A stretch of 64,000 nucleotides of DNA, taken from positions 1,960,001 through 2,024,000 of the forward strand of contig NZ_CP040058.1 of NCBI RefSeq assembly GCF_005280655.1, given 5' to 3'. Under the pieces are notes generated by a model. The model saw only the letters and a program-made list of their open reading frames with translations. It was not told the DNA's origin and searched no databases. Below are positions 23,690-51,048 of this stretch, piece by piece. Each line of letters starts with the position of its first letter. Position 1 is the stretch's first letter. The DNA is from Anaerostipes rhamnosivorans. GTDB taxonomy: Bacteria > Bacillota > Clostridia > Lachnospirales > Lachnospiraceae. The position numbers were made by a program, and so were the translations under genes.

Positions 23690-25093
23690 TTATATCTGAC
23701 AAACTTTATGAGGGTTCAGGATATTTTTTGGATCAAAGGCTGCTTTGATTCCCCTCATGATGTTCATGGTTTCTTCCTCAAGGGATTCATTGAGATAAGG
23801 TTTTTTGGCATATCCGATCCCATGTTCACCGGACACCTGGCCGTTTAATTCAGCTGCCTTCTGGTAAATCTTATCCATAGCCATCTTCATCCGTTCCTCC
23901 CACTGCTCATCGGTGAGATCGTCCTTTAAAATATAGGCATGGAGGTTACCGTCTCCTGCATGACCGAAACTCTTGATCCTGATATCTACCTCATGATGAA
24001 GGTTGTGCATATACTCGACCATCTCACTAATCTTATTTCTCGGAACTACCACATCTACCTCATCCATGTAGGTTGTGGATCCCTTAATCGCCTCCAAAAA
24101 TGCCCCCCTGGCTTTCCAGATGGATTCGTCTCTCTCCTCCGTATCGGAGATGAGCACATCCAACGCCCCCTGGCTTAAACAGAGCTTTGCGACCTTATCA
24201 TAATCGGCCTCGATCTCTTCCGCTGAATTTCCGTCAAACTTCAGCAGCAAGTAGGCATCCGCCTGATGGTCAGGAAATTTCTTACCCAGATACTCCTCCG
24301 CGTCCTCGATGACTTCCCTCTGCATAAACTCAATAGCCGTAGGGATCGACTTAGACTTAATGATTTCCGGCACCGTTTGTATCGCTGAGTTGAGATCTTT
24401 AAAAGGTATCAGGAGGCTGATGGCTTTTTTCGGAAGCGGGAGCAGCTTTAAGACAGCTTTCGTGATGATCCCCAGTGTTCCTTCCGAACCGACCATTAAA
24501 TCCTTCATCGCATATCCAGAGCTGTTCTTAACGATCTTTCCGCCGAATTCCACGATGCTTCCGTTGGGCAGCACCACTTCCAGGCCACGGACATAATCCC
24601 TTGTCACTCCGTACTTCACCGCCCTCATTCCACCGGCGTTTGTACTGATATTTCCTCCGATGGTGGCAGATTTTTCACCTGGATCCGGCGGGTAGAAGAA
24701 ATCGTGTTCCTCCACAAAAGCGGATAATTCCATCAAGAGCACTCCCGGCTCTACTGTGACCGTCAGATTTTCTTCGTCCAGCTCCAGGATCTGGTTCATG
24801 AGACTCGTATCAATCATGATGCCATGTTCCATTGCCACGGAAGATCCCACCAATCCAGTGCCCGCTCCTCTTGGGGTGACAGGGATCGTATGCTCATAGG
24901 CATAAGACATGATCTTTGAGATTTCCTGGGCATTTGCGGCTTTCACTACCACATCGGGATAACTCTGAGTGCCGGAGAGCTCATCATGGCTGTACTCCTC
25001 ATTGATATGTTCCCCGGACAAAATCCTCTCGTCATCGTTGATTACTTGTTTTATGTATTCCAGATCTTTCTCATCTAATTTTTTATAATCCAT
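23690..25093 (-). CDS. lctD: FAD-dependent D-lactate dehydrogenase (GlcD/LctD type), module A
   Basis: 467 residues. The PCMH-type FAD domain is clear: [19 protein letters not shown], then [20 protein letters not shown] and [20 protein letters not shown]. The C-terminal domain ends with [14 protein letters not shown], the substrate-site histidine motif of the glycolate oxidase/D-lactate dehydrogenase family. It oxidises lactate to pyruvate and passes electrons to an ETF. It lies two bases after etfA, and the order regulator-etfB-etfA-dehydrogenase equals lctABCD of Acetobacterium woodii, whose complex couples lactate oxidation to NAD reduction by flavin-based electron confurcation. A related 2-hydroxy acid as substrate cannot be excluded. 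Confidence 0.8.
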
Positions 25094-25095
25094 AG

Positions 25096-26289
25096 TTATG
25101 CCCCCTGACTTACTTTGATTTTTTCTATGAACTGAGGAATGATTTCATATAAATCTCCCACCAGGCCGTAGTGTGCTACTTTAAATATAGAAGCTTTCTC
25201 ATCTTTGTTGATAGCAATGATCTGATCCGAATGGTCCATTCCGGCAACAAACTGAATGGCTCCGGACACGCCACAGGTAATCATCAGTTTCGGCCGGACG
25301 GTCCGGCCGCTTAAGCCTACCTGCTTTTTGGCGTCCAGCCATCCGTTTTCTGCCACGGGCCTTGTACATGCCACCTGTCCGCCGAGCAGGTCAGCCAGTT
25401 CCGTCAGCATCAAAAGATCCTCTTCTTTTTTGACACCTCGGCCTGCCACCACAAGCACATCGGCAGATTCAATGAATTTTTCCTTTTCCTTTAACACAAT
25501 GTCCAGTACTTCCACATTGGTCTGAAGTTTTGGTTTGTCAATGGAACATTCTATGATCTCTCCGTGTGCCTCTTCCATCCGTTCTGGGGCATTCATCACC
25601 TTGTAGCGCACTGTCGCCATTTGAGGACGGTGGTTTGGCGTGGTGATATGGGCCATGATATTTCCACCGAAAGCCGGGCGTATCTGGGAGAGATCTGTAT
25701 TTTCGTTCATCTCAAGGATCGTACAGTCCGCCGTAAGACCTGTCTTCATTCTTGCGGCTACCCTCGGAGCCAGCTGTCTGCCCACGGTTGTGGCACCTAC
25801 TAAAATAGCTGACGGATGCTGTTTCTGTATAAAATCCTCAAACACTGCAGTGTACGGCTCGATCTTAAACCGGTTTAGTTCCGGGTCGTCATACAAGAAT
25901 ACCTGATCGACTCCATAGTGAAGCAGCTCTTCGCTTTCTTCCCTGATTCCGCTTCCGATGAACAGTGCATACACAGGATGGGAGATCTTCCTGGCCAGCT
26001 CTCTGGCCTTCCCAATCAGTTCATAAGTCACCGGGTGGATCTTTCCGTCCACATGATCCACATAGACTACGATTCCGTTCCAGGCAGATTTGTCGATCTC
26101 CTCTTTCTTCTGGTCCTCCACGTAGGTTACTGCTCCTTCGGGCCCTTTCTTTACGCACAGCTTACACATCTTGCAGGCTGAATTGATCTCCAGTTTTCCG
26201 TCCTTTTCTTCCATGGCCCCAAACGGACAGAGCTTGATCATCTCTCCAAGATCATTTATTTTTTCCTGGTTAATTACTAACTTTGCCAT
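25096..26289 (-). CDS. lctC: EtfA with N-terminal 4Fe-4S domain, module A
   Basis: 397 residues. The first 60 residues form a ferredoxin-like domain: CPFGAME, then [16 protein letters not shown], giving four cysteines for one cluster. An ETF alpha subunit follows, with the FAD domain marked by [21 protein letters not shown] and the ending [17 protein letters not shown]. EtfA with such an extension is the hallmark of LctC and CarE in acetogens, where it serves bifurcating complexes. The gene is separated from etfB by 214 bases that hold a diverged family A repeat, yet the strand and order imply one functional unit. The 4Fe-4S domain is absent from the module B EtfA. Confidence 0.85.
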
Positions 26290-26503: not shown

Positions 26504-27292
26504 TCATATAAATTTCAGTTCTTTTACTTTGTGAAACAGCTTTTCTGAAAGAATACTGCTCTCCTCGTTCCACAGTTCCCTATGGTGGTTTGTTTCCGGA
26601 GGGAAAATCTTTTGGACCTGTGTAGGTGAACCATTCAATCCGTAATGAGTTTCATCCTGGTCATCCATGTCATCCAGACTGAGCATAACGATTTCCGTAT
26701 CTGCTTTTTCCATTTTTCTCACATAAGATGGAAGTCTTGGCTGAAAAATGTCCTTATCCACTGCTAAGAGACATGGATATGTAATTCTGGTGATCTCAAT
26801 GTCATCCGGCATATCCATCTCGACTGTGATATTCTGCTCATTAGCCTCGGTAATCTTCCGGACATTGGATACGCTTGGGATGCCAAGCCATTCAGAAATT
26901 TCCGGACCGACCTGGGCTGTATCTCCGTCCGTGGTCTGCTTTCCGCAAAGGATCAGGTCAAAATCTCCCATTTTTTTGATTCCCTGTGCCAGAGTGTAGC
27001 TTGTTGCCAGCACATCGGCTCCCCCGAATCTCCGGTCAGAAATCAGTGCCCCATGGTCTGCTCCCATGGCATAGGCTTCCCGGATCACCTGTGCTGCCTG
27101 AGGAGGCCCCATGGTAATCACACTGACACTTCCTCCCAGTTCTTCTTTTAACTTCATTGCGGTCTCTATGGCATAGAGATCATAAGGGTTCATCTTGGAT
27201 GCCGCGCCGTTTCTCTTCAGGACACCAGTCTTAGGATCTACTTCCACCTTGTTGGACTCCGGTACCTGCTTGATACAAACTAAAATATTCAT
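26504..27292 (-). CDS. lctB: EtfB, module A (bifurcating type)
   Basis: 262 residues. It begins with the ETF beta signature MNILVCIKQVPESNKVEVD, continues with AYAMGADHGALISDRRFGGA, and has CGKQTTDGDTAQVGPEISEW. The D-G-D-T-A-Q-V-G-P block is the form I associate with NAD-linked bifurcating EtfB. With EtfA it would carry two FADs between the lactate dehydrogenase and NAD/ferredoxin. First structural gene of the module; its leader holds two operator palindromes (27316-27332 and 27386-27400). Confidence 0.85.
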   Translation of the reverse strand: MNILVCIKQVPESNKVEVDPKTGVLKRNGAASKMNPYDLYAIETAMKLKEELGGSVSVITMGPPQAAQVIREAYAMGADHGALISDRRFGGADVLATSYTLAQGIKKMGDFDLILCGKQTTDGDTAQVGPEISEWLGIPSVSNVRKITEANEQNITVEMDMPDDIEITRITYPCLLAVDKDIFQPRLPSYVRKMEKADTEIVMLSLDDMDDQDETHYGLNGSPTQVQKIFPPETNHHRELWNEESSILSEKLFHKVKELKFI

Positions 27293-27315
27293 ATCTTCGT
27301 TCCTCCTGCCTTCAC

Positions 27316-27332
27316 GATTGGTCCTACCAATC
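27316..27332. promoter_or_regulatory. LldR/GntR-type operator, module A, downstream site
   Basis: GATTGGTCCTACCAATC is a perfect palindrome of 7+3+7. It fits the T-N-G-T-N3-A-C-N-A consensus of FadR-subfamily GntR regulators. It lies about 70 bp downstream of the likely transcription start, between promoter and etfB. Confidence 0.8.
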
Positions 27333-27385
27333 GTCTGAAAAATAATTGGAAATGATTGTTCATCTCCAGGTTCCTTGTTTTGTGT

Positions 27386-27400
27386 ATTGGCCCTACCAAT
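27386..27400. promoter_or_regulatory. LldR/GntR-type operator, module A, at the transcription start
   Basis: ATTGGCCCTACCAAT, the same palindrome core as 27316-27332, centred 69 bp from it. It begins about 9 bases past the -10 element (TATAAT, 27414-27409), so bound protein would block initiation. Confidence 0.8.
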
Positions 27401-27408
27401 TTATATTC

Positions 27409-27437
27409 ATTATAAACGTATTTGTATTTTCCGTCTA
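27409..27437 (-). promoter_or_regulatory. Promoter of lactate module A
   Basis: TATAAT (27414-27409) has a weaker TAGACG -35 (27437-27432) with 17-base spacing. The first operator lies at the expected start site. Confidence 0.6.
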
Positions 27438-27480
27438 GTATTATTTTTAAATTCCATTATTTTTGGTCATATTGCACAAA

Positions 27481-28170
27481 TTATCTAGCTTTCATTCGCT
27501 CCAAGGTCTTGTTGATAATGTCAAAGTGGTCCTCGATTGCTCTTCTTCCGCCTTCCAGATTCTTTTCGATCATACATTTTGCAATCTCTTTATGAGTCTG
27601 CTGAAGCTTTTCTTTGTTGTCATCCTTAAAGATCTCCCGCCTCATATCTGTGATATAGGTGTCCAAAACATCGGACAATGCCTGTAAAATATCAATAATC
27701 AAAACATTGCGGGAAGCCTTTGCTATGGCGTAATGAATTTTTTTGTCCCAGATCACACATTCTTCCTCGGTTTTGCCTCTGTCCAAATTTGAGATATACT
27801 CACCGATCCTCTGGATCTCCTCCTCGCTGATGTTGTCCACGGCCAGAACAAAGGCCTCCATCTCCAGCGCAAAACGCAGCTGTGTGATGGAACCGTAGTC
27901 CAGTTTGTGCAGAATAAACATCATAGACATGGATTCCACCAGATTCTTTTCAAAGTTACAGGAAACATAATTCCCCGCACCCTGTTGGCTTGAGATAAAA
28001 CCCATCATCTCGAGCATGTGGATCGCCTCGCGTACAGAATTCCGGCTGACGCCAAGGTTCTCTGAAATTTCTCTCTCCGGAGGCAGTTTCTCCCCAATGG
28101 TCAGATCATGATTGATGATCTGTTTCTTAATGTGCTCTATCACCTTTTCATATGCTTTTCCCTGCTGCAT
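27481..28170 (-). CDS. lctA: GntR/FCD-family regulator of lactate genes
   Basis: 229 residues. The N-terminal winged HTH is KLPPEREISENLGVSRNSVR, then EAIHMLEMMGF. The C-terminal FCD domain holds the metal/ligand residues in FALEMEAFVLAV, WDKKIHYAIAKAS and HKEIAKCMIEKN...DHF, as in FadR and LldR. LldR-type members respond to L-lactate. Palindromes of the matching type occur at both lactate promoters and nowhere else that I found. It is transcribed from its own promoter (28206-28234), with the module A promoter in the 188 bases downstream. Assignment as the local lactate sensor is inference from context and operators. Confidence 0.8.
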   Translation of the reverse strand: MQQGKAYEKVIEHIKKQIINHDLTIGEKLPPEREISENLGVSRNSVREAIHMLEMMGFISSQQGAGNYVSCNFEKNLVESMSMMFILHKLDYGSITQLRFALEMEAFVLAVDNISEEEIQRIGEYISNLDRGKTEEECVIWDKKIHYAIAKASRNVLIIDILQALSDVLDTYITDMRREIFKDDNKEKLQQTHKEIAKCMIEKNLEGGRRAIEDHFDIINKTLERMKAR

Positions 28171-28205
28171 CTCTATCCCTCTTTCTATGAATACACTTGG
28201 AGAAA

Positions 28206-28234
28206 ATTATACCTTTCAGGTATCCCGAAATCAA
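28206..28234 (-). promoter_or_regulatory. Promoter of the GntR regulator
   Basis: TTGATT (28234-28229) and TATAAT (28211-28206) with 17-base spacing. No operator palindrome is seen here, so autoregulation is not supported. Confidence 0.65.
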
Positions 28235-28391
28235 GGGAATTTGTATTATTTCCGGCTTTTTCATCAGATTTCTGTCTCTTCCTGGCTAAATATCATGTTT
28301 TTGGTGTGGAAAGAAGAATCCATGACGTTTTTTGAATATCATGATATAATTGTAAATAAGTATATTAGCATACACGCTGGAGATTTATGGG

Positions 28392-29186
28392 ATGGTAATA
28401 AATATGAAAACATTTGAATTTGACGGAGAGAAATATAAAAAGGCTTCAAAGCACCAAAAAGAATGGGGCAATAACCTAATTGACGAATTGTCTTTAACTG
28501 GTGATGAGGAAATACTTGATTTAGGCTGCGGAGATGGCGGTTTAACCGAACAGCTGGCTCAATCCGTACCTAGAGGAAGAGTTTTGGGAATTGACGCTTC
28601 AGCGGGAATGATTGCTGCTGCCCAAAACCGGCTGAAGTCAAATTTAGTGTTTATGCAAATGGATATTAACACAATCGATTTTCAGAATAGGTTCGATGTT
28701 ATATTTTCAAATGCAGCTCTACATTGGGTTAAGAACCATGAAAGACTTTTAAGTAATGCTTTTAGAGCATTAAAAGAGAACGGCTTACTCTTATGGGATT
28801 TTGCAGGTGATGGGAATTGTTCTAATTTTTTTGAAGTCATGCGAGAAACAATTCATAGTAAAAAATACAAACCATATTTTCGAAACTTTGAATGGCCTTG
28901 GTATATGCCGACGAAAAATATTTATGAAAAAATCATAGCAGCTTCTGGTTTTACTACATACAGTATTACAGAAATAAACCGGGATAGGTTTTTTGCAAGT
29001 GCGGATGAAATGATAAAATGGATAGACCAGCCGAGTATCGTACCCTTTATAAGCAATATCCCAGAGGAAATGAAAATGGAATTTCGAGATGATGTCATTC
29101 AATCAATGATAAAAAAGACATTACAGCCAGATGCTGCTTGCTTTGAAACGTTTCGGCGTATCCATGTAAAAGCAAGCAAAAATTGA
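28392..29186 (+). CDS. SAM-dependent methyltransferase, trans-aconitate methyltransferase-like
   Basis: 264 residues. Motif I is EEILDLGCGDGGLTEQLAQS, followed by RVLGIDASAGMIAAAQ and the motif IV-like FDVIFSNAALHWVKNH. The overall plan matches Tam and related small-molecule methyltransferases. The substrate is unknown. GGAG lies 9 bases before the ATG at 28392. It is the first gene of a plus-strand, AT-rich cassette between the two lactate modules and is followed by a VOC protein 12 bases later. Its base composition differs visibly from the flanking genes, suggesting acquisition. Confidence 0.8.
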   Translation: MVINMKTFEFDGEKYKKASKHQKEWGNNLIDELSLTGDEEILDLGCGDGGLTEQLAQSVPRGRVLGIDASAGMIAAAQNRLKSNLVFMQMDINTIDFQNRFDVIFSNAALHWVKNHERLLSNAFRALKENGLLLWDFAGDGNCSNFFEVMRETIHSKKYKPYFRNFEWPWYMPTKNIYEKIIAASGFTTYSITEINRDRFFASADEMIKWIDQPSIVPFISNIPEEMKMEFRDDVIQSMIKKTLQPDAACFETFRRIHVKASKN

Positions 29187-29198
29187 TGAGGTGAAAAG

Positions 29199-29561
29199 AT
29201 GATAACAGGATACTATTGCACCAATATTTTTTCTGAGCACGCAAAAGAACTAATTGAGTTTTATACACTAAAATTGGGAATCCCCATTATGAAAACTGAT
29301 GATGATAATACAAATGGGGTTTACCTCGGTTTTATCGAACATGCTCCCACTCTTTGTATATGGGATTGCAAAAAATGTAATGTACAGCCGACGGGACATC
29401 AGTCCTTTGTTTTTCAAACCCAAAATCTTGATTTAACAATGGAAGATCTAACGGAAAAAGGGCTTACATTGTCCGAAGCCATTCGGTATGATTGGGGAAC
29501 CTATGAAGTTCGCTTTAACGATCTTGACGGAAACGAAGTCGTGATCGCAGAATTTGTGTAA
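29199..29561 (+). CDS. VOC-superfamily (glyoxalase/bleomycin-resistance-like) protein
   Basis: 120 residues with the beta-alpha-beta-beta-beta repeat of the vicinal-oxygen-chelate fold. EHAKELIEFYTLKLGIPIMK starts it and YEVRFNDLDGNEVVIAEFV ends it, the terminal glutamate being the usual metal ligand. Such proteins include glyoxalases, dioxygenases and drug-binding resistance proteins; the role here is unknown. GAGGTGA lies upstream of the ATG. It sits in the cassette after the methyltransferase. Confidence 0.8.
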   Translation: MITGYYCTNIFSEHAKELIEFYTLKLGIPIMKTDDDNTNGVYLGFIEHAPTLCIWDCKKCNVQPTGHQSFVFQTQNLDLTMEDLTEKGLTLSEAIRYDWGTYEVRFNDLDGNEVVIAEFV

Positions 29562-29601
29562 TTGTCAAATTTTAAATATCACAAACAATCGGGAAAGAAT
29601 T

Positions 29602-30075
29602 ATGAATTATATTATTAGAGAGATAAAACAAAACGAGATTAATCTTCTAGATAATTTTCTATATGAAGCAATCTTTATTCCAAATGGAGTACAGCCGCCG
29701 CCGAAAGACATTATAAAGCAGCCAGAGCTGCAAGTATATATATCTTTGTTTGGGAAAAGAATCGGCGATTACGGTTTTGTCGCAGAAGTAGATCATGAAG
29801 TTGTTGGTGCTGTATGGGTACGGATCATGGATGATTATGGTCATGTAGATGATAAAACTCCATCATTTGCTATTTCAATTTATAAAGGATATAGAGGTTA
29901 TGGGATCGGTACAGATCTAATGAAAAGAATGCTTGAACTATTAAAGAAAAACGGATATAAACAGACTTCCTTGGCAGTTCAAAAATCAAATTATGCTGTA
30001 AAAATGTATAAGGATTTAGGTTTTTACACGATTGCTGAAAATGATGAAGAATATATAATGATTTGCAAACTTTAA
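29602..30075 (+). CDS. GNAT-family N-acetyltransferase
   Basis: 157 residues from the ATG at 29602 (GGGAAAG upstream). The acetyl-CoA-binding motif A is YKGYRGYGIGTDLMKRMLEL, preceded by the beta-strand DDKTPSFAISI, and the C-terminal YAVKMYKDLGFYTI is typical. The acceptor is unknown: small molecule, peptide or antibiotic. It is third in the plus-strand cassette. Confidence 0.85.
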   Translation: MNYIIREIKQNEINLLDNFLYEAIFIPNGVQPPPKDIIKQPELQVYISLFGKRIGDYGFVAEVDHEVVGAVWVRIMDDYGHVDDKTPSFAISIYKGYRGYGIGTDLMKRMLELLKKNGYKQTSLAVQKSNYAVKMYKDLGFYTIAENDEEYIMICKL

Positions 30076-30124
30076 GATGATAAAAATATTCACAGAAGTT
30101 ATATAAAAGGATGGAGAGGTATAA

Positions 30125-30730
30125 ATGAAAGAAATCATCAACTTTATTGAGACGAATGTGGATGGCAAAACGCTGTTTACAAAGGAATTAGTTTACGAAC
30201 TGGAAAACGGTGCGTTACAGGGCGTTTACTCTGATCAAATATCCTTTTCTAATCTAAAATACTCCCAGAGTGGATTTCAGTTTGATATGTTTATTATATC
30301 CAATGAAAAGATATGGCTCATAGGAAAGGATGAACATCGGGAGAAACTAAGAAAAGATTTTAGTGCTGTATCCCTATTCCGATTTGAGCTGGCAAAGAGA
30401 AAAAGCACGAACGATATTACTGGATGTTTTCGTTTCATTTCAGCGTCAGGAAAAAGTGTGGCGGCAGAGGCTATCGTAAGTGGTATTTATGATGTGCGGC
30501 TTGAAGATGATGTGCTGAAATTATCAGAAAGCCAGGCATTGTACCGAGATCAGCCGATACAGGAAGAGCGCTTCAAGCCAGTTGCATTTCAGTCAGAACA
30601 TCGTTTTTATGTCAAAGAGGAAAAGCTACACTATGAATACGATGGCAAATCTTTTGACGTGGATGTAGAAACCATGCAGCGCAACGATAGCTATGATACC
30701 TTTCCTCCATTTATTTCAATTGAGAAGTAA
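30125..30730 (+). CDS. Conserved hypothetical protein
   Basis: 201 residues, not recognised. Soluble, with no signal peptide or membrane segment. The N-terminus KEIINFIETNVDGKTLFTKE is followed by mixed beta-rich sequence, and RFELAKRKSTNDITGCFRFI marks the middle. GGATGGAGAGG gives a good ribosome site. It is last in the plus-strand cassette and converges on the module B etfA gene, with a GC-rich inverted repeat between. Confidence 0.55.
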   Translation: MKEIINFIETNVDGKTLFTKELVYELENGALQGVYSDQISFSNLKYSQSGFQFDMFIISNEKIWLIGKDEHREKLRKDFSAVSLFRFELAKRKSTNDITGCFRFISASGKSVAAEAIVSGIYDVRLEDDVLKLSESQALYRDQPIQEERFKPVAFQSEHRFYVKEEKLHYEYDGKSFDVDVETMQRNDSYDTFPPFISIEK

Positions 30731-30746
30731 ATATTAACATGAGGAT

Positions 30747-30780
30747 ACCTCCTGCCCTGGAATACTCCTGGGCAGGAGGT
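30747..30780. repeat. 11-bp GC-rich inverted repeat between convergent units
   Basis: ACCTCCTGCCC and GGGCAGGAGGT are exact complements with a 12-base loop. No T run follows on either strand, so it may be a weak or factor-assisted terminator for the cassette and for module B. Confidence 0.55.
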
Positions 30781-30824
30781 GCATTAAGATGGTCAATATG
30801 CATTAAGCATAGAAACACGCTGGT

Positions 30825-31823
30825 TTATTCTGCTTCCTTTCTCTTCTTGATCTCTTCGATCATAACAGGAAGCACATTTACTACATTGCCTACGATGCCG
30901 ATATTGGCCACTTCAAAAATAGGCGCATCTTCATCTTTGTTGATGGCTACTATATAATCGGAATTCATAATTCCTGAGACATGCTGTGTTGCGCCGGAAA
31001 TACCGCAGGCGATATAGAGCTTCGGCGCTACGATCTTTCCTGACTGCCCTACCTGGTGGACTCTGGAGATCCATCCGTCTTCGATGGCAGGTCTTGTGGC
31101 TCCCACCACTCCGCCCAGCAGATCCGCCAGTTCTTTCACCATGGAAAAGTTTTCTTTGCTTCCCATACCCCGTCCGCCGGACACAATCACCTCGGCGTCT
31201 TCCAGGTTGACAGTCTCGGCTATTTCTTTGACCACATCCTTGATGTCCAGATGGATCTTTTCGTCAGAAACTGAAATGTTTCTTTCGGTGATGGTACCCT
31301 GGACCGGATTTTCTGCCTTTTTAAAAGCTCCGGATCGCAGCACGGCGATCTGCGGCACAGACTCTTCCAAGGCCACATCCTTTAAGACACATCCCCCGTA
31401 GAGAGGACAAGTATAAACAACTTTCCCGTCAGCAAACTTCATATCCATCACATCAGAGACACAGCCTGCTCCAAGTCTTGCCGCCAGTTTCGGGGCAAGA
31501 TCTTTTCCGTCCTGAGTGCCGCCGACCAGTACCGCAAACGGCTTCTCTTTAGCTGCCACGGCCTCCAAAACGTTTGTATAACGGTCCAGATGGAACATTT
31601 TATACTGCGGATCTTCAACCAGGATAACTTCATCCGCACCGGAAGACGCCGCTTTTTCGGCTGCTTCCCGGATCCCGTCTCCAATCATGACCGCAAGGAC
31701 CTTTCCTCCCAGTTCCCCGGCAATTTGTCTGGCGGGGGAGAGCATTTCCAGGCCGACCTTGACCGGATTTTTTTCCGTGGTTTCGATATAAACCACGATA
31801 TTCTTATATTCTGTCATATCCAT
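30825..31823 (-). CDS. etfA: EtfA, module B
   Basis: 332 residues, a standard ETF alpha subunit without the ferredoxin extension of the module A protein. The FAD-binding part is VSGGRGMGSKENFSMVKELA, then QVGQSGKIVAPKLYIACGIS. AAGGAGGA lies upstream of the ATG. Final gene of lctP-larA-ldh-acd-etfB-etfA, 13 bases after etfB. With EtfB it should carry electrons between the dehydrogenases of the operon. Confidence 0.85.
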   Translation of the reverse strand: MDMTEYKNIVVYIETTEKNPVKVGLEMLSPARQIAGELGGKVLAVMIGDGIREAAEKAASSGADEVILVEDPQYKMFHLDRYTNVLEAVAAKEKPFAVLVGGTQDGKDLAPKLAARLGAGCVSDVMDMKFADGKVVYTCPLYGGCVLKDVALEESVPQIAVLRSGAFKKAENPVQGTITERNISVSDEKIHLDIKDVVKEIAETVNLEDAEVIVSGGRGMGSKENFSMVKELADLLGGVVGATRPAIEDGWISRVHQVGQSGKIVAPKLYIACGISGATQHVSGIMNSDYIVAINKDEDAPIFEVANIGIVGNVVNVLPVMIEEIKKRKEAE

Positions 31824-31836
31824 TGTAAACTCCTCC

Positions 31837-32640
31837 TTAGAATACTTTCGCGTCTGCCATCATGGCCACAGCTTTTAACGCTGAATCCTCTGCTGTCTCT
31901 TCCTGGATTTTGATTCCGGCCTCTTTTTTCGGCGGTTCATAGAGCTTCAGAGTTTTTACAAAGGCTCCGGCCTCCCCTGTTTTTTCAGGTTCCAGCATGG
32001 TCAGATCTTCTGCTTTTAAGGTTCCAATGGGCTTTTTCCTTGCCGCCATTTTATTTTTGATAGTTGGGTATCTCGGATCATAATCCGGCTTTGTCACAGT
32101 GAGCACACAGGGGGCTACTGTTTCTATCAGACGGTATCCCTCCTCTGTTTCCTGCTTTGCGGTCACACGGCCTTCAGAGGAGTCCACTTCAATCACATTG
32201 GTGACAATTCCGATACCCATCATCTCCGAAAGGCTTACACCTGTCTGACCAAGGGCTGCGTCCGTGGCTTCCTTTCCGCAGAAGATCAAGTCAAACTTCT
32301 TTCCCGTATCTTCCTCTATCTTTTTGGCCGCACACATTAAAATATGGCTGATTCCTCTGGAGTCCGAACCGTCAAACTGATCCTCCCGGACCAGATACGC
32401 ATGGTCGGCTCCCACTGCGAGGCAGTTTTTTAATGAATTCCTGGCTTCCTCACCGCCGATGCAGAGGGCCGTGATCTCCCCTTCTCTGGCTTCTTTCAGG
32501 CGGGCTGCCATCTCCAGCGCATAAGTGTCAAACGCGTTGACCACAGGCGTAATATTGGAAAGATCCGGTTTTCCTTCGTCTGTCAAATGTACCTCCACAG
32601 AATCATCCGGCACCTGTTTTACACACACTAAAATTTCCAT
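31837..32640 (-). CDS. etfB: EtfB, module B (variant nucleotide-binding loop)
   Basis: 267 residues from the ATG at 32640, with AAAGGAG 8 bases upstream (a GTG at 32649 overlaps the site). It opens with EILVCVKQVPDDSVEV. The nucleotide-binding block reads CGKEATDAALGQTGVSLSEM, unlike the D-G-D-T-A-Q-V-G-P of the module A EtfB and closer to the Q-T-G form of classical AMP-binding ETFs. This suggests that the module B ETF may not bifurcate in the same way; that is inference from one motif. It follows the acyl-CoA dehydrogenase by 29 bases. Confidence 0.8.
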   Translation of the reverse strand: MEILVCVKQVPDDSVEVHLTDEGKPDLSNITPVVNAFDTYALEMAARLKEAREGEITALCIGGEEARNSLKNCLAVGADHAYLVREDQFDGSDSRGISHILMCAAKKIEEDTGKKFDLIFCGKEATDAALGQTGVSLSEMMGIGIVTNVIEVDSSEGRVTAKQETEEGYRLIETVAPCVLTVTKPDYDPRYPTIKNKMAARKKPIGTLKAEDLTMLEPEKTGEAGAFVKTLKLYEPPKKEAGIKIQEETAEDSALKAVAMMADAKVF

Positions 32641-32669
32641 AATCTTCACTCCTTTGTTCAGTCGTTTTC

Positions 32670-33806
32670 TTATCTGCCGATGGTGTTATTTGCGATGACG
32701 ATTCTCTGGATCTCATTGCTTCCCTCAAAGATCTGGAAAATCTTCGCGTCGCGCAGAAGTTTCTCCACCGGATATTCTCTGCTGTATCCGTATCCTCCGA
32801 ACATCTGGATGGCTTCGGATGCCACTTCCATTGCAATATCACTGGCATAGCATTTTGCGATGGCTGCCTCTTTAGAATGTGGGAGTGAGAGATCCATTTT
32901 GGTCAGTGCGTGGGCCACCATCTGGCGTGCTGTCTCTGTCTTGATTGCCATATCTGCGATCTTAAACTGCAGTGCCTGGTTCCTGATGATCGGTTTTCCG
33001 AACTGGATCCTTTCTTTTCCGTAGGCGATAGCTTCATTAATGCCTCTCTGTGCGATTCCTGCGGCGACACATCCCATCCATGCCCTTGCCTGGTCAAGTG
33101 TCTTCATGGCAATTCCAAAACCTTTTCCTTCCTGGCCGATCAGATTTGCTGCCGGGATCCTGCAGTCTTCCAGCACCACATCACAAGTGTTGGAAGTACG
33201 GATTCCCATCTTATCTTCTTCATTTCCGGTGCTCAGTCCCGGAGTTCCTGCATCCACAAGGAACATGGAGATTCCTTTGACACCCTTGCTTTTGTCTGTC
33301 ATAGCTGTAATACAGTAAAAAGAAGCGATACCGCCGTTTGTGATAAAGCACTTCCGTCCGTTTAGTATGTACTCATCTCCATCTTTGACCGCGGTTGTCG
33401 TTCCTGCCCCGGCATCAGAGCCTGCTCCCGGCTCTGTCAGACAAAATGCCCCAAATCCGCCTTCTATAATCTGGCTGCATACATGCTGTTTCTGTTCTTC
33501 ATTTCCCGCGATTAAAACCGGTTTTGTTCCCAGTCCGCTGGCAGAAATGGTCGTGGCAAATCCTGCATCCGCAATAGCCATCTCCTCGATGAGAGCCGCC
33601 ACATCCACTCTGGAAAGTCCTGGTCCGCCGTACTCTTCCGGTACCTCCAGGGAGTGAAGCTGCATTTCGATGGCTTTATCGTAAATCTCCTTCGGCCATT
33701 CTCCTGATTTATCAAATTCTTTGCACTGTTCTTTTACTTCGTTTTCACAGAATTCTCTCACGTCCTGCAGTAAATCGTTTGCTTCCTCTGAAATTAAATA
33801 TGCCAT
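32670..33806 (-). CDS. Acyl-CoA dehydrogenase in the lactate operon
   Basis: 378 residues, normal length. It has the signatures FCLTEPGAGSDAGAGTTTA (FAD/substrate site) and FGGYGYSREYPVEKLLRDAK, and the catalytic glutamate in IFEGSNEIQRI near the C-terminus. It reduces or oxidises a short acyl-CoA with ETF as partner. Its place between a lactate dehydrogenase and etfBA is striking and matches, as I recall, Anaerostipes lactate clusters. One possibility is that it lets lactate electrons reach an enoyl-CoA such as crotonyl-CoA. AAAGGAG lies upstream of the ATG. Confidence 0.85.
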   Translation of the reverse strand: MAYLISEEANDLLQDVREFCENEVKEQCKEFDKSGEWPKEIYDKAIEMQLHSLEVPEEYGGPGLSRVDVAALIEEMAIADAGFATTISASGLGTKPVLIAGNEEQKQHVCSQIIEGGFGAFCLTEPGAGSDAGAGTTTAVKDGDEYILNGRKCFITNGGIASFYCITAMTDKSKGVKGISMFLVDAGTPGLSTGNEEDKMGIRTSNTCDVVLEDCRIPAANLIGQEGKGFGIAMKTLDQARAWMGCVAAGIAQRGINEAIAYGKERIQFGKPIIRNQALQFKIADMAIKTETARQMVAHALTKMDLSLPHSKEAAIAKCYASDIAMEVASEAIQMFGGYGYSREYPVEKLLRDAKIFQIFEGSNEIQRIVIANNTIGR

Positions 33807-33847
33807 GATTGATTTCTCCTTTATATTTGATATTGTTTCTTTATTTT

Positions 33848-35275
33848 TTACAGTTTATAGCAGACTTTTCCCGGATTTAGGATCATATTCGGGTCAAAGG
33901 TATGTTTTACACCTTCCATGATCCTCATGCTGACCGGTCCCGCGGATTCTGCCAGATAGTCCAGTTTTCCGTGCCCGATCCCGTGTTCACCGGAGATCAG
34001 GCCGCCGAACTCCGTGGCTTTCTCATAGACCTTTTTCATGAAAACAGACACTTGTTTCCTAAACTCTGCCTCTTCCATGTCATTGCTGCATGTATAAATA
34101 TGCAGGTTTCCGTCTCCAGCATGGCCAAAGCTTTTTACCCTGAAGTCTGCCTCTGCCTCCAGCGACTTTGTATACGTCAGGAATTCCGCGATCTTATTTG
34201 TAGGCACTACCACATCACATTCATCCAAAAGCACTGTATCCGCCTCGATGGCTTCTAAAAGTGCACTTCTCACTGCCCATGCGTCACGCTTAAGTGCCGG
34301 AGTATCCGCTACCAGGACATCGATAGCTCCAGCCTCCAACACAACCTCTGACGCGGCTTCGATAATATCTTCCAGCTGCTCTTCTGAATCCCCGTCAAAG
34401 GTGGCCAGCAGATATGCTCCCACTTCCATGCCTTCCATTTTTTTTGGATAGACCTTCTTTCCAAGGAACTTTTCTGTGTCCATGACAACATCCTTTTCCA
34501 TGAACTCCAGCGCCTGGGGATGCAGATTGTTCATGAAAACCTGGGGCACTGTGGCAATACAGTCTTCCAAAGTCTCGTAAGGAATGATCAGGCTGATGAC
34601 CGCTTTGGGCTGAGGGATCACCTTTAACGTAAGCTCTGTGATCACTCCCAGAGTTCCCTCAGAACCGATCATCAGATTCAGCAGGCTGTAGCCGGAGCTG
34701 GTCTTAGATACCGTGGCACCGAACTTTACAACCTCGCCTGTGGGGAGCACTACCGTCATTGCCCTGACGTAATCCCTTGTGGTGCCGTATTTTACTGCTC
34801 TCATGCCTCCTGCATTGGTTGCCACATTTCCTCCCACGGTGGCAAATTTTTCTCCCGGATCCGGCGGATAGAGAAGTCCCTGCTTTTCGGCATCCTCTGC
34901 CAGATCATTTAAAAGAACCCCCGGCTGGATAGTTACCACAAAGTTTTCTTTATCATATCCCAGGATCTTATTCATCTTTGTGATGGACAGCAAGATTCCG
35001 CCGTGGATGCTGACAGCTCCTCCTACCAGTCCAGTCCTGGCTCCGCTCGGTGTCACAGGGATCTTGTGCTCATTGCAGAGCTTCATCACTAAAGCCACTT
35101 CCTCCGTGGTCAATGGCTCCACAACCGCTTCCGGCATTGCCTTTCCGTAGATTGACATCTCATCATGGGTAAAGTCATCGTTGATCTCATCCCCCGTATA
35201 GACACGCTTCGGAGCAATTTCCTTCAGCTGATCTATGATTTCTTGTGTCACTTTGCCATATTGATATTCACTCAT
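33848..35275 (-). CDS. FAD-dependent lactate dehydrogenase (GlcD/LctD type), module B
   Basis: 475 residues from the ATG at 35275, with AAGGAGG 5 bases before it; an in-frame TTG further up lies inside that ribosome site. It is paralogous to the 23690-25093 enzyme along its whole length: [39 protein letters not shown] and SGEHGIGHGKLDYLAE. It should oxidise D-lactate (or the isomer supplied by LarA) to pyruvate. It is translated 14 bases after larA and 41 bases before the acyl-CoA dehydrogenase. The stereospecificity cannot be decided from sequence. Confidence 0.85.
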   Translation of the reverse strand: MSEYQYGKVTQEIIDQLKEIAPKRVYTGDEINDDFTHDEMSIYGKAMPEAVVEPLTTEEVALVMKLCNEHKIPVTPSGARTGLVGGAVSIHGGILLSITKMNKILGYDKENFVVTIQPGVLLNDLAEDAEKQGLLYPPDPGEKFATVGGNVATNAGGMRAVKYGTTRDYVRAMTVVLPTGEVVKFGATVSKTSSGYSLLNLMIGSEGTLGVITELTLKVIPQPKAVISLIIPYETLEDCIATVPQVFMNNLHPQALEFMEKDVVMDTEKFLGKKVYPKKMEGMEVGAYLLATFDGDSEEQLEDIIEAASEVVLEAGAIDVLVADTPALKRDAWAVRSALLEAIEADTVLLDECDVVVPTNKIAEFLTYTKSLEAEADFRVKSFGHAGDGNLHIYTCSNDMEEAEFRKQVSVFMKKVYEKATEFGGLISGEHGIGHGKLDYLAESAGPVSMRIMEGVKHTFDPNMILNPGKVCYKL

Positions 35276-35289
35276 CTTATCCTCCTTGC

Positions 35290-36585
35290 TCAACCTTGGT
35301 TTTTATTTCTTACAATTACCGCGACACCGTCCGGTATCACAGTGATCTTACTATTTTCTCTGCCCAGATACTCATCTGCCAAACGGATCGCGTCCTCTAC
35401 GCTGTCGGCATAATCCATCTGCATTTCCTCCACCATATCCTTCGGAGCCTGTGTCACCATGATGACCTTATATTTTAACAAGATACGGCATAAGATCTGG
35501 GATTCCCACTGGTCCGGCACGGTAGAGTTCCGGTCCGTTAAAAGAAATCTCTTCATAATCTTTTCTTTGTCCTTTTCCTTGGCAAACGTATCATACAGTT
35601 CCTTGCCGCCGTGCCCGTCTATGCAGCTTGCAGCCATGATGATCACCCCGCCCGGCCTGCAGGTGGCTTCCGCCGCAGTCATACCTTTGACTGACTGGTA
35701 AATATTTTGGTCCAGAGGATAGCCTCCGTTGGTAGAAATGACAATGTCGGACGGTACCGCATCCACTCCAGAGAGTTGATCCACGAATTGACATCCCTTT
35801 TCATGTGCTTTTTCATAATGTCCTGCGAAAGCCTCGATGACTTTTTTATCTTCATCCAGAACCACATTTACGATAAATGCAAGTTTGGCCTTTCCCGCCG
35901 CGTAGATCATATCCCGGTGAATGGGATTGCCCTCAAGGATTCCTGTCCTGGCATGAGCATCATCAATGAACTCTGAACAATGGTTAGCCAGCACTGTGGT
36001 TCTGCTGGATACTCCGGGAAGAACACTCTTTCTTCCGCCGGAAAATCCTGCAAAAAAGTGAGGTTCAATAAATCCCTCCGAGATCAGAAGATCGGCCTCC
36101 CAGGCAATCCTGTTGATCAGGAGTTCCCCTCCCGATGGAAGTGTACCAAGGCTTACCATATCTTCGGACTTTCCGCTTTCATGTACCACGAACCTGATGG
36201 CCGGATGGTCCACGATCTTCTCCCCAAATTTTGCGATCAGTTCTTCTCTTGTGGTAGGACGGTGAAATCCTGTGGCGATCAAAACTGTTATTTTGGCATC
36301 AGGATTCCCCTGCCTGATCTCCTCCAATACAGCCGGCATGATCACCTTGCTCGGAACCGGACGGGTGTGGTCGCTGGCGATCAAAACGATATTGTCTTTT
36401 CCTCTGGCTAATTCCCTGAGCCGCGGGGTTCCCACCGGATGCAGCAGGGCGTCCCTCACAAGCTCTTCTTCCCCCATCTTGGCCCGGTAATCGTGGGCTT
36501 TTGACAGAAGGATGCCTGCCAGGCGCTCCTTCGGGATCTCAATGGTTAATTTCCCTTTTCCGTAGGGAAGGTTGATTCTTTTCAT
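35290..36585 (-). CDS. larA: Lactate racemase (nickel-pincer LarA family)
   Basis: 431 residues. The pincer-cofactor residues are in place: SDHTRPVPSK, a catalytic His in ATGFHRPTTREE, and EPHFFAGFSGGRKSVLPG, where the His and the cofactor-linking Lys are ten residues apart as in the Lactobacillus enzyme. A further His follows sixteen residues after that Lys (TVLANH). It interconverts D- and L-lactate so both isomers reach the dehydrogenase. LarA-like proteins may act on other 2-hydroxy acids, but the operon argues for lactate. Maturation genes larB, larC and larE are not in the window. 21 bases after lctP. Confidence 0.9.
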   Translation of the reverse strand: MKRINLPYGKGKLTIEIPKERLAGILLSKAHDYRAKMGEEELVRDALLHPVGTPRLRELARGKDNIVLIASDHTRPVPSKVIMPAVLEEIRQGNPDAKITVLIATGFHRPTTREELIAKFGEKIVDHPAIRFVVHESGKSEDMVSLGTLPSGGELLINRIAWEADLLISEGFIEPHFFAGFSGGRKSVLPGVSSRTTVLANHCSEFIDDAHARTGILEGNPIHRDMIYAAGKAKLAFIVNVVLDEDKKVIEAFAGHYEKAHEKGCQFVDQLSGVDAVPSDIVISTNGGYPLDQNIYQSVKGMTAAEATCRPGGVIIMAASCIDGHGGKELYDTFAKEKDKEKIMKRFLLTDRNSTVPDQWESQILCRILLKYKVIMVTQAPKDMVEEMQMDYADSVEDAIRLADEYLGRENSKITVIPDGVAVIVRNKNQG

Positions 36586-36606
36586 AAGTTACCTCCGTCG
36601 AATGTT

Positions 36607-38157
36607 TTAGATGAACCGAAGTCCTGTAAATGCAATCACTCCGTAAAGTACAATAAACAGAATGAAGTATTTTATGGATCCGTTCAGGATCTTGCTCTCT
36701 TTTCCAACTGTTCCGGTGGCAGCTACGGCAATGGCAATACTCTGGGGTGAAATGATCTTTCCTGCCGTGGACCCCACCGTATTGGCCGCTGCCAGCCAGA
36801 CATCGTTCATACCGAGGGTATGGGCTGTCTGGACCTGAAGTCCGGTAAACAGCACACTTGAGGATGTGGCGCTTCCCGTCACAAAGGTTCCAATAGAACC
36901 GATCAGCGGTGCCACCAGCGGATAAAAGGAACCGGTGACTGCCACGATCAAGGCCGCGATGTCGCTGATCATACCGCTGTATCCCATCACTTTTGCCGTT
37001 GCCAGTACGGATACGATGGTCAGAACAGTCTTAGACATCTGGATCAAAGTATCTTTCAATACCATTCCGATCTCTCCCCAGGATGCGCCCTGTGCTTTTC
37101 CTCCGATCAGAGCCGCCAGGAAGATCAGGACTCCGGGGGTTGCCAGCCATGTAAAGGTATACGGGGCGGCTCCGGCACCTGTGTAGATCTGCACGGAACT
37201 CTTCACGCTTGCCAATGGGTCATGAATGGCAGGAACCAGGCTGGAAGTGACCAGGAGGAAAACCAGGATCAGCAGAAACGGAAGCCACGCGGTCACAGCC
37301 TTTTTTAACCCAAGAGGCTCTTTTTTTGTGAGCTCCGAATCGTTTAATCCCTCCAGGATATATTCCGGGTCTTCTTTTCTCTTCAAAAGCTTTGCGGAAA
37401 GGATCGTGACCACCATGCTGCACACGGAGCCGATCACAACCGGGAGCTCAGCCCCCACAAACTTTGCTGTGAGGTATTCCGGGAGGATAAAACCTAATCC
37501 GGAAAGCAGTGTGATCAGGCCGATCCCCTTCAGTCCCTTTATGGAACCTCCGGTCATGATCATCATCAGAAACGGAGTCAGGATCACTAAGACTGCCAGC
37601 TGCAGGACAACAGCCACTGCTACGCTCCCTGGATCCAGTCCGCTCACGGAGGCTGCCGTGATGGTCGGAATTCCGATGGAGCCGAATGCTGTCGGTGTTG
37701 CATTGGCAACCAGACAGACCGTCGCCGCAAAGATTGGATTAATTCCCAGCCCGCATAGGATACTTGCCGGAATCGCAACCGCCGTGCCAAACCCGGCCAT
37801 TCCCTCCATGAATCCTCCGAAGCCCCATGCAATGATGAGAATCAGGATCCGTTTGTCTCTGGATACGCTGGTCAGCATCCGTTTGATCAAATCCATATGT
37901 TTTGTATGTACTGTCAGGTTGTAAGTAAAAATGGCCGCAATGATGACCAGACAGATCGGCCATATTCCCATGGCTGCACCCTCAAGTGTTCCGGTGAGGG
38001 CATCTAAAAGCGGCATTTTCCAAAGAAGCAGTGCTAGAACTAGTGTAATCGCAAGTGAAATAGGACAGGCTTTGTATCCAGGCATCTTTAAGCCACTTAG
38101 GGCTAACATGAGCCAAAGAATAGGAAGCAAAGCCAAAATAAATTTAATGAACATCAC
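36607..38157 (-). CDS. lctP: L-lactate permease family transporter
   Basis: 516 residues with about twelve to thirteen membrane segments. Family motifs include GFMEGMAGFGTAVAIPASIL and NATPTAFGSIGIPTITAAS, which belong to the lactate permease (LctP/GlcA) family. It would import D- and L-lactate (or glycolate) with protons. It heads the module B operon behind a promoter with two operators. AAAGGAG lies upstream. The length is close to that of the family, and nothing is missing. Confidence 0.9.
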   Translation of the reverse strand: MMFIKFILALLPILWLMLALSGLKMPGYKACPISLAITLVLALLLWKMPLLDALTGTLEGAAMGIWPICLVIIAAIFTYNLTVHTKHMDLIKRMLTSVSRDKRILILIIAWGFGGFMEGMAGFGTAVAIPASILCGLGINPIFAATVCLVANATPTAFGSIGIPTITAASVSGLDPGSVAVAVVLQLAVLVILTPFLMMIMTGGSIKGLKGIGLITLLSGLGFILPEYLTAKFVGAELPVVIGSVCSMVVTILSAKLLKRKEDPEYILEGLNDSELTKKEPLGLKKAVTAWLPFLLILVFLLVTSSLVPAIHDPLASVKSSVQIYTGAGAAPYTFTWLATPGVLIFLAALIGGKAQGASWGEIGMVLKDTLIQMSKTVLTIVSVLATAKVMGYSGMISDIAALIVAVTGSFYPLVAPLIGSIGTFVTGSATSSSVLFTGLQVQTAHTLGMNDVWLAAANTVGSTAGKIISPQSIAIAVAATGTVGKESKILNGSIKYFILFIVLYGVIAFTGLRFI

Positions 38158-38204
38158 GAGCAGAATCTCCTTTCTGTTCAGGACTACGGGTTACACCCAA
38201 ATAA

Positions 38205-38219
38205 ATTGGTTCTACCAAT
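38205..38219. promoter_or_regulatory. LldR/GntR-type operator, module B, downstream site
   Basis: ATTGGTTCTACCAAT, an exact 6+3+6 palindrome, is centred 30 bp (about three helical turns) from the second site. Same core as the module A operators. Confidence 0.8.
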
Positions 38220-38235
38220 CCCCTTGTTGCCCCTT

Positions 38236-38264
38236 ATGGTAGGACCAATTTCAAAAGTTGTCAA
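38236..38264 (-). promoter_or_regulatory. lctP promoter with operator overlapping the -10
   Basis: TTGACA (38264-38259) and a TACCAT -10 (38241-38236) are 17 bases apart. The operator AATTGGTCCTACCAT on the minus strand (38250-38236) covers the -10 and part of the spacer, one arm base differing from a perfect palindrome. Binding would directly exclude RNA polymerase. Confidence 0.8.
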
Positions 38265-50565: not shown

Positions 50566-51048
50566 TCACAATCCGAGACTATCTGCCCATGTTTTGATGT
50601 CGTTTTGCCCTGCATTAGCATTAAATCGTTTTCCTGCCTTTAATATAGCTCCAGGACAAGACTTTTTTAGTTCTGCATTGGTATTTCCCATACCGCTGCT
50701 TCCCGATGTAGCAAACGGAACCACCGTCTTTCCGGTCAGATCGTACTGCTCAAGGAAAGAATTAATAATCGTAGGAGCGACATACCACCAGATCGGAAAT
50801 CCGAGATAGACCGTATCAAACTGTTCCATATTCTCTACCCTATTTGCAATAGGCGGACGGAAAGAAGCCTTCTCTTTCATCTCAATACAACTGCGGCTTT
50901 CCGGATTCATCCAATCAAGATCCGCCTTGCTGTATGGCCGCTCCGGCTGTATTTCATGCAGCTCGCCGCCGACAGCTTTCGCAAGGTTTTTTGCCAGTCC
51001 CGCGGTTACACCACTTGCAGAAAAATACGCTACTAAGGTTTTGCTCAC
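50566..51048 (-). CDS. Flavodoxin
   Basis: 160 residues. It has the FMN-phosphate loop YFSASGVTAGLAKNLAKAVG, a variant of the T/S-x-T-G-x-T motif, and the aromatic YLGFPIWWYVAPTII loop that stacks on the isoalloxazine ring. PFATSGSSGMGN completes the site. It transfers electrons or reduces quinones in the cytosol. GTG start with AAGGAGG upstream. Monocistronic with a strong terminator. Confidence 0.85.
   Translation of the reverse strand: MSKTLVAYFSASGVTAGLAKNLAKAVGGELHEIQPERPYSKADLDWMNPESRSCIEMKEKASFRPPIANRVENMEQFDTVYLGFPIWWYVAPTIINSFLEQYDLTGKTVVPFATSGSSGMGNTNAELKKSCPGAILKAGKRFNANAGQNDIKTWADSLGL

Follow-up and report, generated by a model that had tools for sequence, protein, structure and literature searches.

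Four palindromes, arranged as one pair before etfB of lactate module A and one before lctP of lactate module B, are most probably (at about 0.9) operators of the local GntR/FCD protein, a LctA/LldR-type lactate repressor that would induce both modules jointly. It is very likely that one local repressor switches two different lactate gene sets through these four copies. The window, i.e. the whole stretch of 64,000 nucleotides analyzed here (1960001–2024000), belongs to a single-contig genome of 3,588,860 bases, which was searched with mechanically called ORFs. Our reading sets out from observed features of the DNA (sites, promoter matches, conservation, co-occurrence with the regulator and rarity in the genome); binding, repression, effector and joint induction are the steps that we infer.

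All four sites are on the minus strand and outside ORFs of at least 150 codons. O2 of module A (27317–27331) is an exact ATTGGNNNTACCAAT palindrome located 24 bp before the etfB start, and O1 of module A (27386–27400), also an exact match to ATTGGNNNTACCAAT, starts 9 bp beyond the -10 box and carries GC in place of AC in one half. O2 of lctP (38205–38219) is again an exact ATTGGNNNTACCAAT palindrome, and O1 of lctP (38235–38249) is ATTGGTCCTACCATA, which has two mismatches to ATTGGNNNTACCAAT and overlaps the -10 box. The original prediction of four palindromes before these two genes is borne out by these three exact copies and one two-mismatch copy. Its strands and spacings were right, including the centre distances of 69 bp (etfB pair) and 30 bp (lctP pair), which we obtained again on recomputation; its fourth site, given as 38236–38250, was one base off. 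The prediction also had all sites fitting the FadR-subfamily consensus, which holds for the GT-N3-AC core of three, the 27386 site having GC in one half. Elsewhere in the window, copies with at most one mismatch are confined to ORFs of at least 150 codons, at 50677 and 59286. Across genomes, sites for a logo were chosen by at most one mismatch to TTGGTNNNACCAA, so that the pattern positions are conserved by construction; the free position -7, which this choice does not impose, is A in 55 of 56 half-site readings. On the opposite strand, a 103-codon ORF overlaps the lctP sites.

On the minus strand, module A reads regulator, promoter, O1, hairpin and T-tract, O2, etfB, etfA and ldh. Its EtfB (26504–27292) is of the A. 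woodii LctB type with Gly123 kept, and its EtfA (25096–26289) is of the LctC type with a cysteine-rich N-terminal extension. LctB and LctC are the best matches among solved structures, with 343.9 bits for EtfB (PDB 7qh2_B; 209.8 for the next best) and 514.9 bits for EtfA (7qh2_A; 305.5 for the next best), the latter match running from residue 16 and taking in the cysteine-rich N-terminal part. The FAD-linked dehydrogenase (23690–25093) is, by context, a putative D-lactate dehydrogenase of the LctD type. With both confurcating marks in its predicted proteins, an Fe-S extension on EtfA and Gly123 in EtfB, module A resembles the electron-confurcating LctBCD of Acetobacterium woodii.

Module B, also on the minus strand, consists of a promoter with O1 over its -10, O2, the lactate permease gene lctP (36607–38157; 434.6 bits, cut-off 341.15), the nickel-dependent lactate racemase gene larA (35290–36585; 641.3 bits, cut-off 460), a FAD-linked dehydrogenase gene (33848–35293; by context, D-lactate dehydrogenase), an acyl-CoA dehydrogenase gene (32670–33806) like the lctG described in PMC8914356, etfB (31837–32649) and etfA (30825–31823), the last without a cysteine-rich extension. 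Where bifurcating ETFs have Gly123, this EtfB has Ala131, and the four other module-B EtfB proteins aligned also have alanine, which is neither glycine nor bulky; the EtfB proteins of two further Anaerostipes genomes, G002 and G007, keep glycine in that column. According to passages of PMC12630350, the EtfB glycine marks bifurcating ETFs; A. caccae and A. hadrus are said there to have a canonical lct ETF, and A. hallii a bifurcating one. A bulky residue in place of the glycine would point to a canonical ETF. In passages of PMC12630350, PMC8914356 and PMC7702098 and among the related literature listed, there is no mention of both ETF kinds side by side under one operator set; we claim no priority for this observation.

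The regulator gene (27481–28170, minus strand) encodes an lctA-like protein of the FadR subfamily with a GntR HTH (PF00392, 66.9 bits, cut-off 27) and an FCD domain (PF07729, 64.4 bits, cut-off 24.3). It is located directly upstream of the etfB-etfA-ldh (LctBCD) operon, as in LctA-type clostridial repressors. The best-scoring NCBIfam family is LldR (PRK10421), with 116 bits against a cut-off of 311 that is therefore not reached. All 17 regulators aligned share five residues (R99, D142, H146, H193 and H215), which match, in order and with two spacings exactly, the LldR ligand residues reported in PMC9600882, as equated by spacing and not by structure. Since the regulators of G002 and G007, genomes without these sites, also contain them, the residues are no test of regulator–site pairing. 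Published descriptions give TGGTNNNACCA as the LldR/LctA motif (PMC9600882) and a GT-N3-AC core for the FadR-subfamily operator consensus (PMC4494728), and report for A. woodii that D-lactate displaces LctA, which binds upstream of lctB (PMC13372834). We infer that the window sites are operators of this regulator; by analogy with its relatives, lactate would be the signal.

The predicted etfB promoter (27409–27437, minus strand) is TAGACG-17-TATAAT and the predicted lctP promoter (38236–38264, minus strand) is TTGACA-17-TACCAT. Shuffled stretches of equal size give about one promoter-like match each (1.0 on average for etfB), and both assignments therefore rest on conservation rather than on the scan. 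In all eight genus genomes with a close regulator orthologue, TATAAT of etfB is aligned and identical, and TTGAC(A/T) and TACCAT occur before lctP at 17-base spacing. The lctP -10 (38236–38241) falls inside the fourth site, in agreement with the predicted overlap. This O1 is ATTGGTCCTACCATA in 8/8 genomes, which represent one genus and not eight independent events, and is never a perfect palindrome. As the deviating half doubles as the -10, the simplest reading is that it is held by this second role.

Without lactate, the repressor would occupy O1, just downstream of the etfB -10 and over the lctP -10, as well as O2 farther downstream, and would stop transcription of both operons at initiation and early elongation. 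Lactate would free the repressor, so that the permease, the racemase and both oxidising modules would be induced together, one route being of the ferredoxin/NAD-confurcating LctBCD type and the other of the LDH-ETF-acyl-CoA dehydrogenase type. That the local protein occludes the lctP promoter, and at etfB either occludes the promoter or imposes an early block, is strongly suggested.

The co-occurrence of sites and regulator was examined in 11 Anaerostipes genomes, the window's included, eight of which carry a regulator at least 50% identical, that of G004 reaching 95%. All eight have pairs with at most one mismatch to TTGGTNNNACCAA before both module A etfB and lctP. In G002 and G007, a regulator 36–37% identical stands downstream of a permease-ldh-etfB-etfA-acyl-CoA dehydrogenase-racemase operon, and neither genome contains the exact 15-mer ATTGGTNNNACCAAT anywhere; before lctP these two genomes have ATTGGCTCATCCAAT or its complement, with the arms kept and the core altered. 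A third genome without a close regulator (G001) has one exact 15-mer, inside an ORF, and says little because close LDH genes are missing as well. Module B itself varies: G005 and G010 have lctP-larA but lack any close module-B LDH genome-wide, and the clusters of G003 and G006 are without larA. The predicted tie of the local GntR regulator to both modules is thus supported by site pairs at both promoters in 8/8 genomes and by the absence of the exact site in G002 and G007.

These data also bear on which regulator binds. The operators could be real and one or both pairs be bound by another GntR/FCD regulator of the cell, given that the core is common to related regulators (as described in PMC4494728) and that the genome has four FCD-domain matches. 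However, two of the other FCD proteins are only 26 and 29% identical to the local regulator, and the third has no entry among the matches listed; the sites track the close lctA orthologue, being present in 8/8 genomes with it, and no exact 15-mer precedes lactate genes in G002 and G007; and the regulator gene adjoins the pair in all linked loci examined. We therefore regard binding by another family member as unlikely, and the local protein as the preferred candidate.

Linkage of the regulator to paired sites extends beyond the genus. A search of 392 genomes of the order gave 26 matches with E no higher than 1e-30, counting that of the window, and the loci of G027 and 20 others were compared (G101, G120, G123 and G375 were left out). 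Nine relatives from six genera have regulators 47–57% identical, and in every one a pair follows the regulator gene and precedes etfB or lctP (for G094, only lctP falls on the stretch examined). G326 (42%) has a single two-mismatch site before its ldh. In the remaining eleven (31–41%), the regulator is not beside a recognised lct operon; seven of these are near an LrgB-like gene (six by PF04172 and G070 by eye), some with a similar site. At class level, 391 genomes gave 12 matches at 1e-45, including G000 and G117, and ten new loci were examined. Two have pairs (G694 and G752), three carry one site before lctP that deviates at no more than one position (G783, G478 and G669), and three have two-mismatch sites only (G750, G529 and G683); G767 has an exact site, but between the regulator and an LrgB-like gene, and G737 has no site outside called ORFs. 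Judged from these loci, the paired arrangement is firm within the order and thin beyond it.

A window scan allowing three mismatches found 65 places against 74.8 expected; as this is no excess, the evidential weight is on exact copies. ATTGGN5CCAAT occurs at 10 places genome-wide, compared to 3 for the reversed control. Three of the 10 are lactate sites, six are within ORFs and one (541922) is intergenic. The bare core TGGTN3ACCA is not enriched (37 places against 50 for the control): three are lactate sites, 33 lie inside called ORFs, one of these 33 (2986455) near the ORF start, and one (1341410) is outside ORFs on the 3′ side of the neighbouring gene, so that only the three lactate copies were found clearly before a gene. 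Allowing at most one mismatch, five genome places remain beyond the lactate sites, all in ORFs, that at 2986453 (ATTGGTTCTACCACT) near its ORF start. With ATTGGCCCGGCCAAT upstream of the reductase-larB stretch as the sole exception, no exact arms or core were found clearly before other genes genome-wide; the many copies before unrelated genes that would have spoken against the prediction were not found with the exact patterns. A further LDH-like gene (chromosome 886963–888288) has no operator nearby in the stretch examined. The lack of enrichment of the bare core could speak for local duplication or chance likeness with no regulatory meaning, but the promoter flanks are unlike each other by eye and the sites are nevertheless kept across divergent genomes, which contradicts both and makes this explanation extremely improbable.

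The ATTGGCCCGGCCAAT exception leads to larB-larC as a possible extra regulon target in some species. Exact ATTGGTNNNACCAAT precedes larB in G004, G009 and G008; NCBIfam names the proteins of G009 and G008 LarB and the next G008 protein LarC. These two proteins build the cofactor of the racemase. A TTGACT-17-TATCAT match (by eye) precedes the G008 site. The role of the site is less clear in G004 and G009, where it stands ~125 bp before larB, with another promoter-like stretch in between. The corresponding place in the window genome has ATTGGCCCGGCCAAT, with an aldo/keto reductase gene between it and larB. Among the other larB-bearing genomes, the 330 bp inspected in G001, G002, G005, G007 and G010 contain no site with at most two mismatches; a close larB is missing from G003 and G006.

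The etfB leader contains a terminator-like hairpin with a T-tract (27337–27368, minus strand; shuffle mean 0.0) between O1 and O2, which transcripts from the predicted etfB start must cross. At regulator-linked promoters, 13 of 14 lineages have five or more consecutive T ending no more than 11 nt from O2, compared to 2.8 expected from dinucleotide shuffles (near-identical G004, G009, G094, G117 and G357 dropped; G278, with four T, is the miss). A strict terminator rule finds 7 of 19 leaders against 0.21 expected. As this rule misses bulged stems, a folding test was added, in which the stretch before the T-tract folds better than shuffles (z of -2.0 or lower) in 10 of 16 loci (G094, G117 and G357 dropped; this z is not reached in G005, G010, G062, G278, G371 and G694). 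Conservation is thus stronger for the T-tract than for the hairpin, so that functions besides termination are conceivable, e.g. bent DNA at O2. The sites of module B lctP are separated by 9–15 bases with no hairpin or T-tract element.

Taking the leader hairpin as merely the lctA terminator was rejected, since a hairpin-like stretch and a T-run are already present between lctA and the promoter in G003, G005, G006, G008 and G010 (T-runs computed, hairpins by eye; G278 also has a T-run). This interval has no five-T run in the window or in its two nearest relatives, and the element in the window may therefore serve both as lctA terminator and in the leader. An antiterminator formed by O1 and the 3′ arm of the hairpin, judged by eye, appeared possible in the window, was not seen in G027, G217 and G373, and was dropped.

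The palindromes themselves might act mainly as RNA hairpins that control termination or translation of etfB and lctP, with DNA binding secondary, as etfB O1 and O2 and lctP O2 are within the predicted transcripts and a terminator-like hairpin is located between the two etfB sites. Against this, lctP O1 overlaps the -10 and should stay untranscribed, the arms keep their letters and not pairing alone (much of which the site-picking pattern demands), the motif equals the LldR motif as published, and Rfam has no match in 27200–28300. An RNA role of this kind is accordingly very improbable, and the sites are better viewed as DNA operators.

For DNA operators, a coupled switch at the regulator-linked promoters can be envisaged, which we put forward tentatively as a rather doubtful extension. 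LctA at O2 would stall RNA polymerase on the hairpin and U-tract ending 2–11 nt upstream, so that road block and intrinsic terminator would together form a lactate-controlled leader attenuator, with the unlinked lctP using plain promoter occlusion. LacI at O3 is a road block to lacI transcription, and a repressor downstream of its own promoter can stop transcription, according to PMC3711431. Among the literature listed on LldR or lactate with leaders or attenuation, and on road blocks with terminators, this arrangement does not appear.

Looping that differs between the promoters, as suggested originally from the two spacings, is unsupported. Spacings of regulator-linked pairs (35–84 bp) show weak phasing at 10.5 bp (Rayleigh p 0.039, Monte Carlo p 0.042, 14 lineages), and the 69 bp of the window, corresponding to 6.57 turns, is the most out of phase among them. 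The lctP pair spacings (24–30 bp) show no phasing.

The host, a gut bacterium, probably lives partly on lactate; passages of PMC7702098 describe Anaerostipes species as making butyrate from lactate and acetate in the gut. If our reading is correct, two routes that probably differ in energy yield answer to the same signal through a single repressor, and the share of flux would therefore be decided by promoter strength or post-transcriptionally. The site set provides a ready regulon definition for the genus and points to a conserved leader element open to direct testing.

This type of switch is already known, and the Anaerostipes case is a well-supported further example with a conserved element between the sites. 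Common ground with the A. woodii lctBCDEF system lies in a repressor, LctA there, that acts upstream of lctB (PMC13372834), in the motif TGGTNNNACCA (PMC9600882), and in LctB and LctC, the closest PDB proteins to EtfB and EtfA of module A. Compared to that locus, as known from descriptions, operators of the same kind are here also found at a second cluster with an acyl-CoA dehydrogenase, a different ETF, a permease and a racemase. Module B has the same content as the lct cluster of Anaerobutyricum soehngenii and Anaerostipes (permease, racemase, D-iLDH, acyl-CoA dehydrogenase and two ETF subunits), as described in PMC8914356 and PMC7702098, but differs from it in gene order. It shares with the Ldh/ETF/Bcd cluster of Fusobacterium nucleatum, as reported in PMC12630350, an acyl-CoA dehydrogenase gene before the ETF genes and an EtfB without the bifurcating glycine; the residue is alanine in module B and phenylalanine there, and the F. 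nucleatum cluster includes LrgAB and is linked to ModRS. Like E. coli LldR, which has two boxes per target with the box AAnTGGTCnGACCAnTT in the account of PMC10272880, the regulator described here has paired sites, whereas the centre-adjacent positions are mostly A/T here and C/G in E. coli, and the protein scores below the NCBIfam LldR cut-off.

The exact lactate-operator palindrome also precedes larB, which with larC belongs to the lactate racemase cofactor genes, in three relatives within the genus (loci L128 of G009, L131 of G004 and L202 of G008), and in G008 larC adjoins larB downstream of the site. At the matching position of the Anaerostipes rhamnosivorans chromosome (C1:541922), an altered copy of the palindrome, ATTGGCCCGGCCAAT, is found. 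This chromosome also encodes another FAD-linked dehydrogenase, its third, which shares 50% identity with the module A enzyme, and the operator was not found near it within the stretch fetched (L205, G000:C1:885000-890500).

In G002 and G007 (L092 and L093), the lct operon has a different gene order and is followed downstream by a regulator with 37% identity. EtfB retains the bifurcation glycine, and the palindrome, ATTGGCTCATCCAAT, has unchanged arms and a different core.

Between the two operators, the leader contains a T-tract, frequently preceded by a terminator-like hairpin (window 27337-27368). The T-tract occurs at the equivalent position of the regulator-linked loci and is kept across lineages.

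Regulators that belong to this family but are more distantly related lie near LrgB-like genes (L215, L220-L225 and L272), some of these loci carrying TTGGTNNNACCAA-like sites, and perhaps represent a sister regulon.
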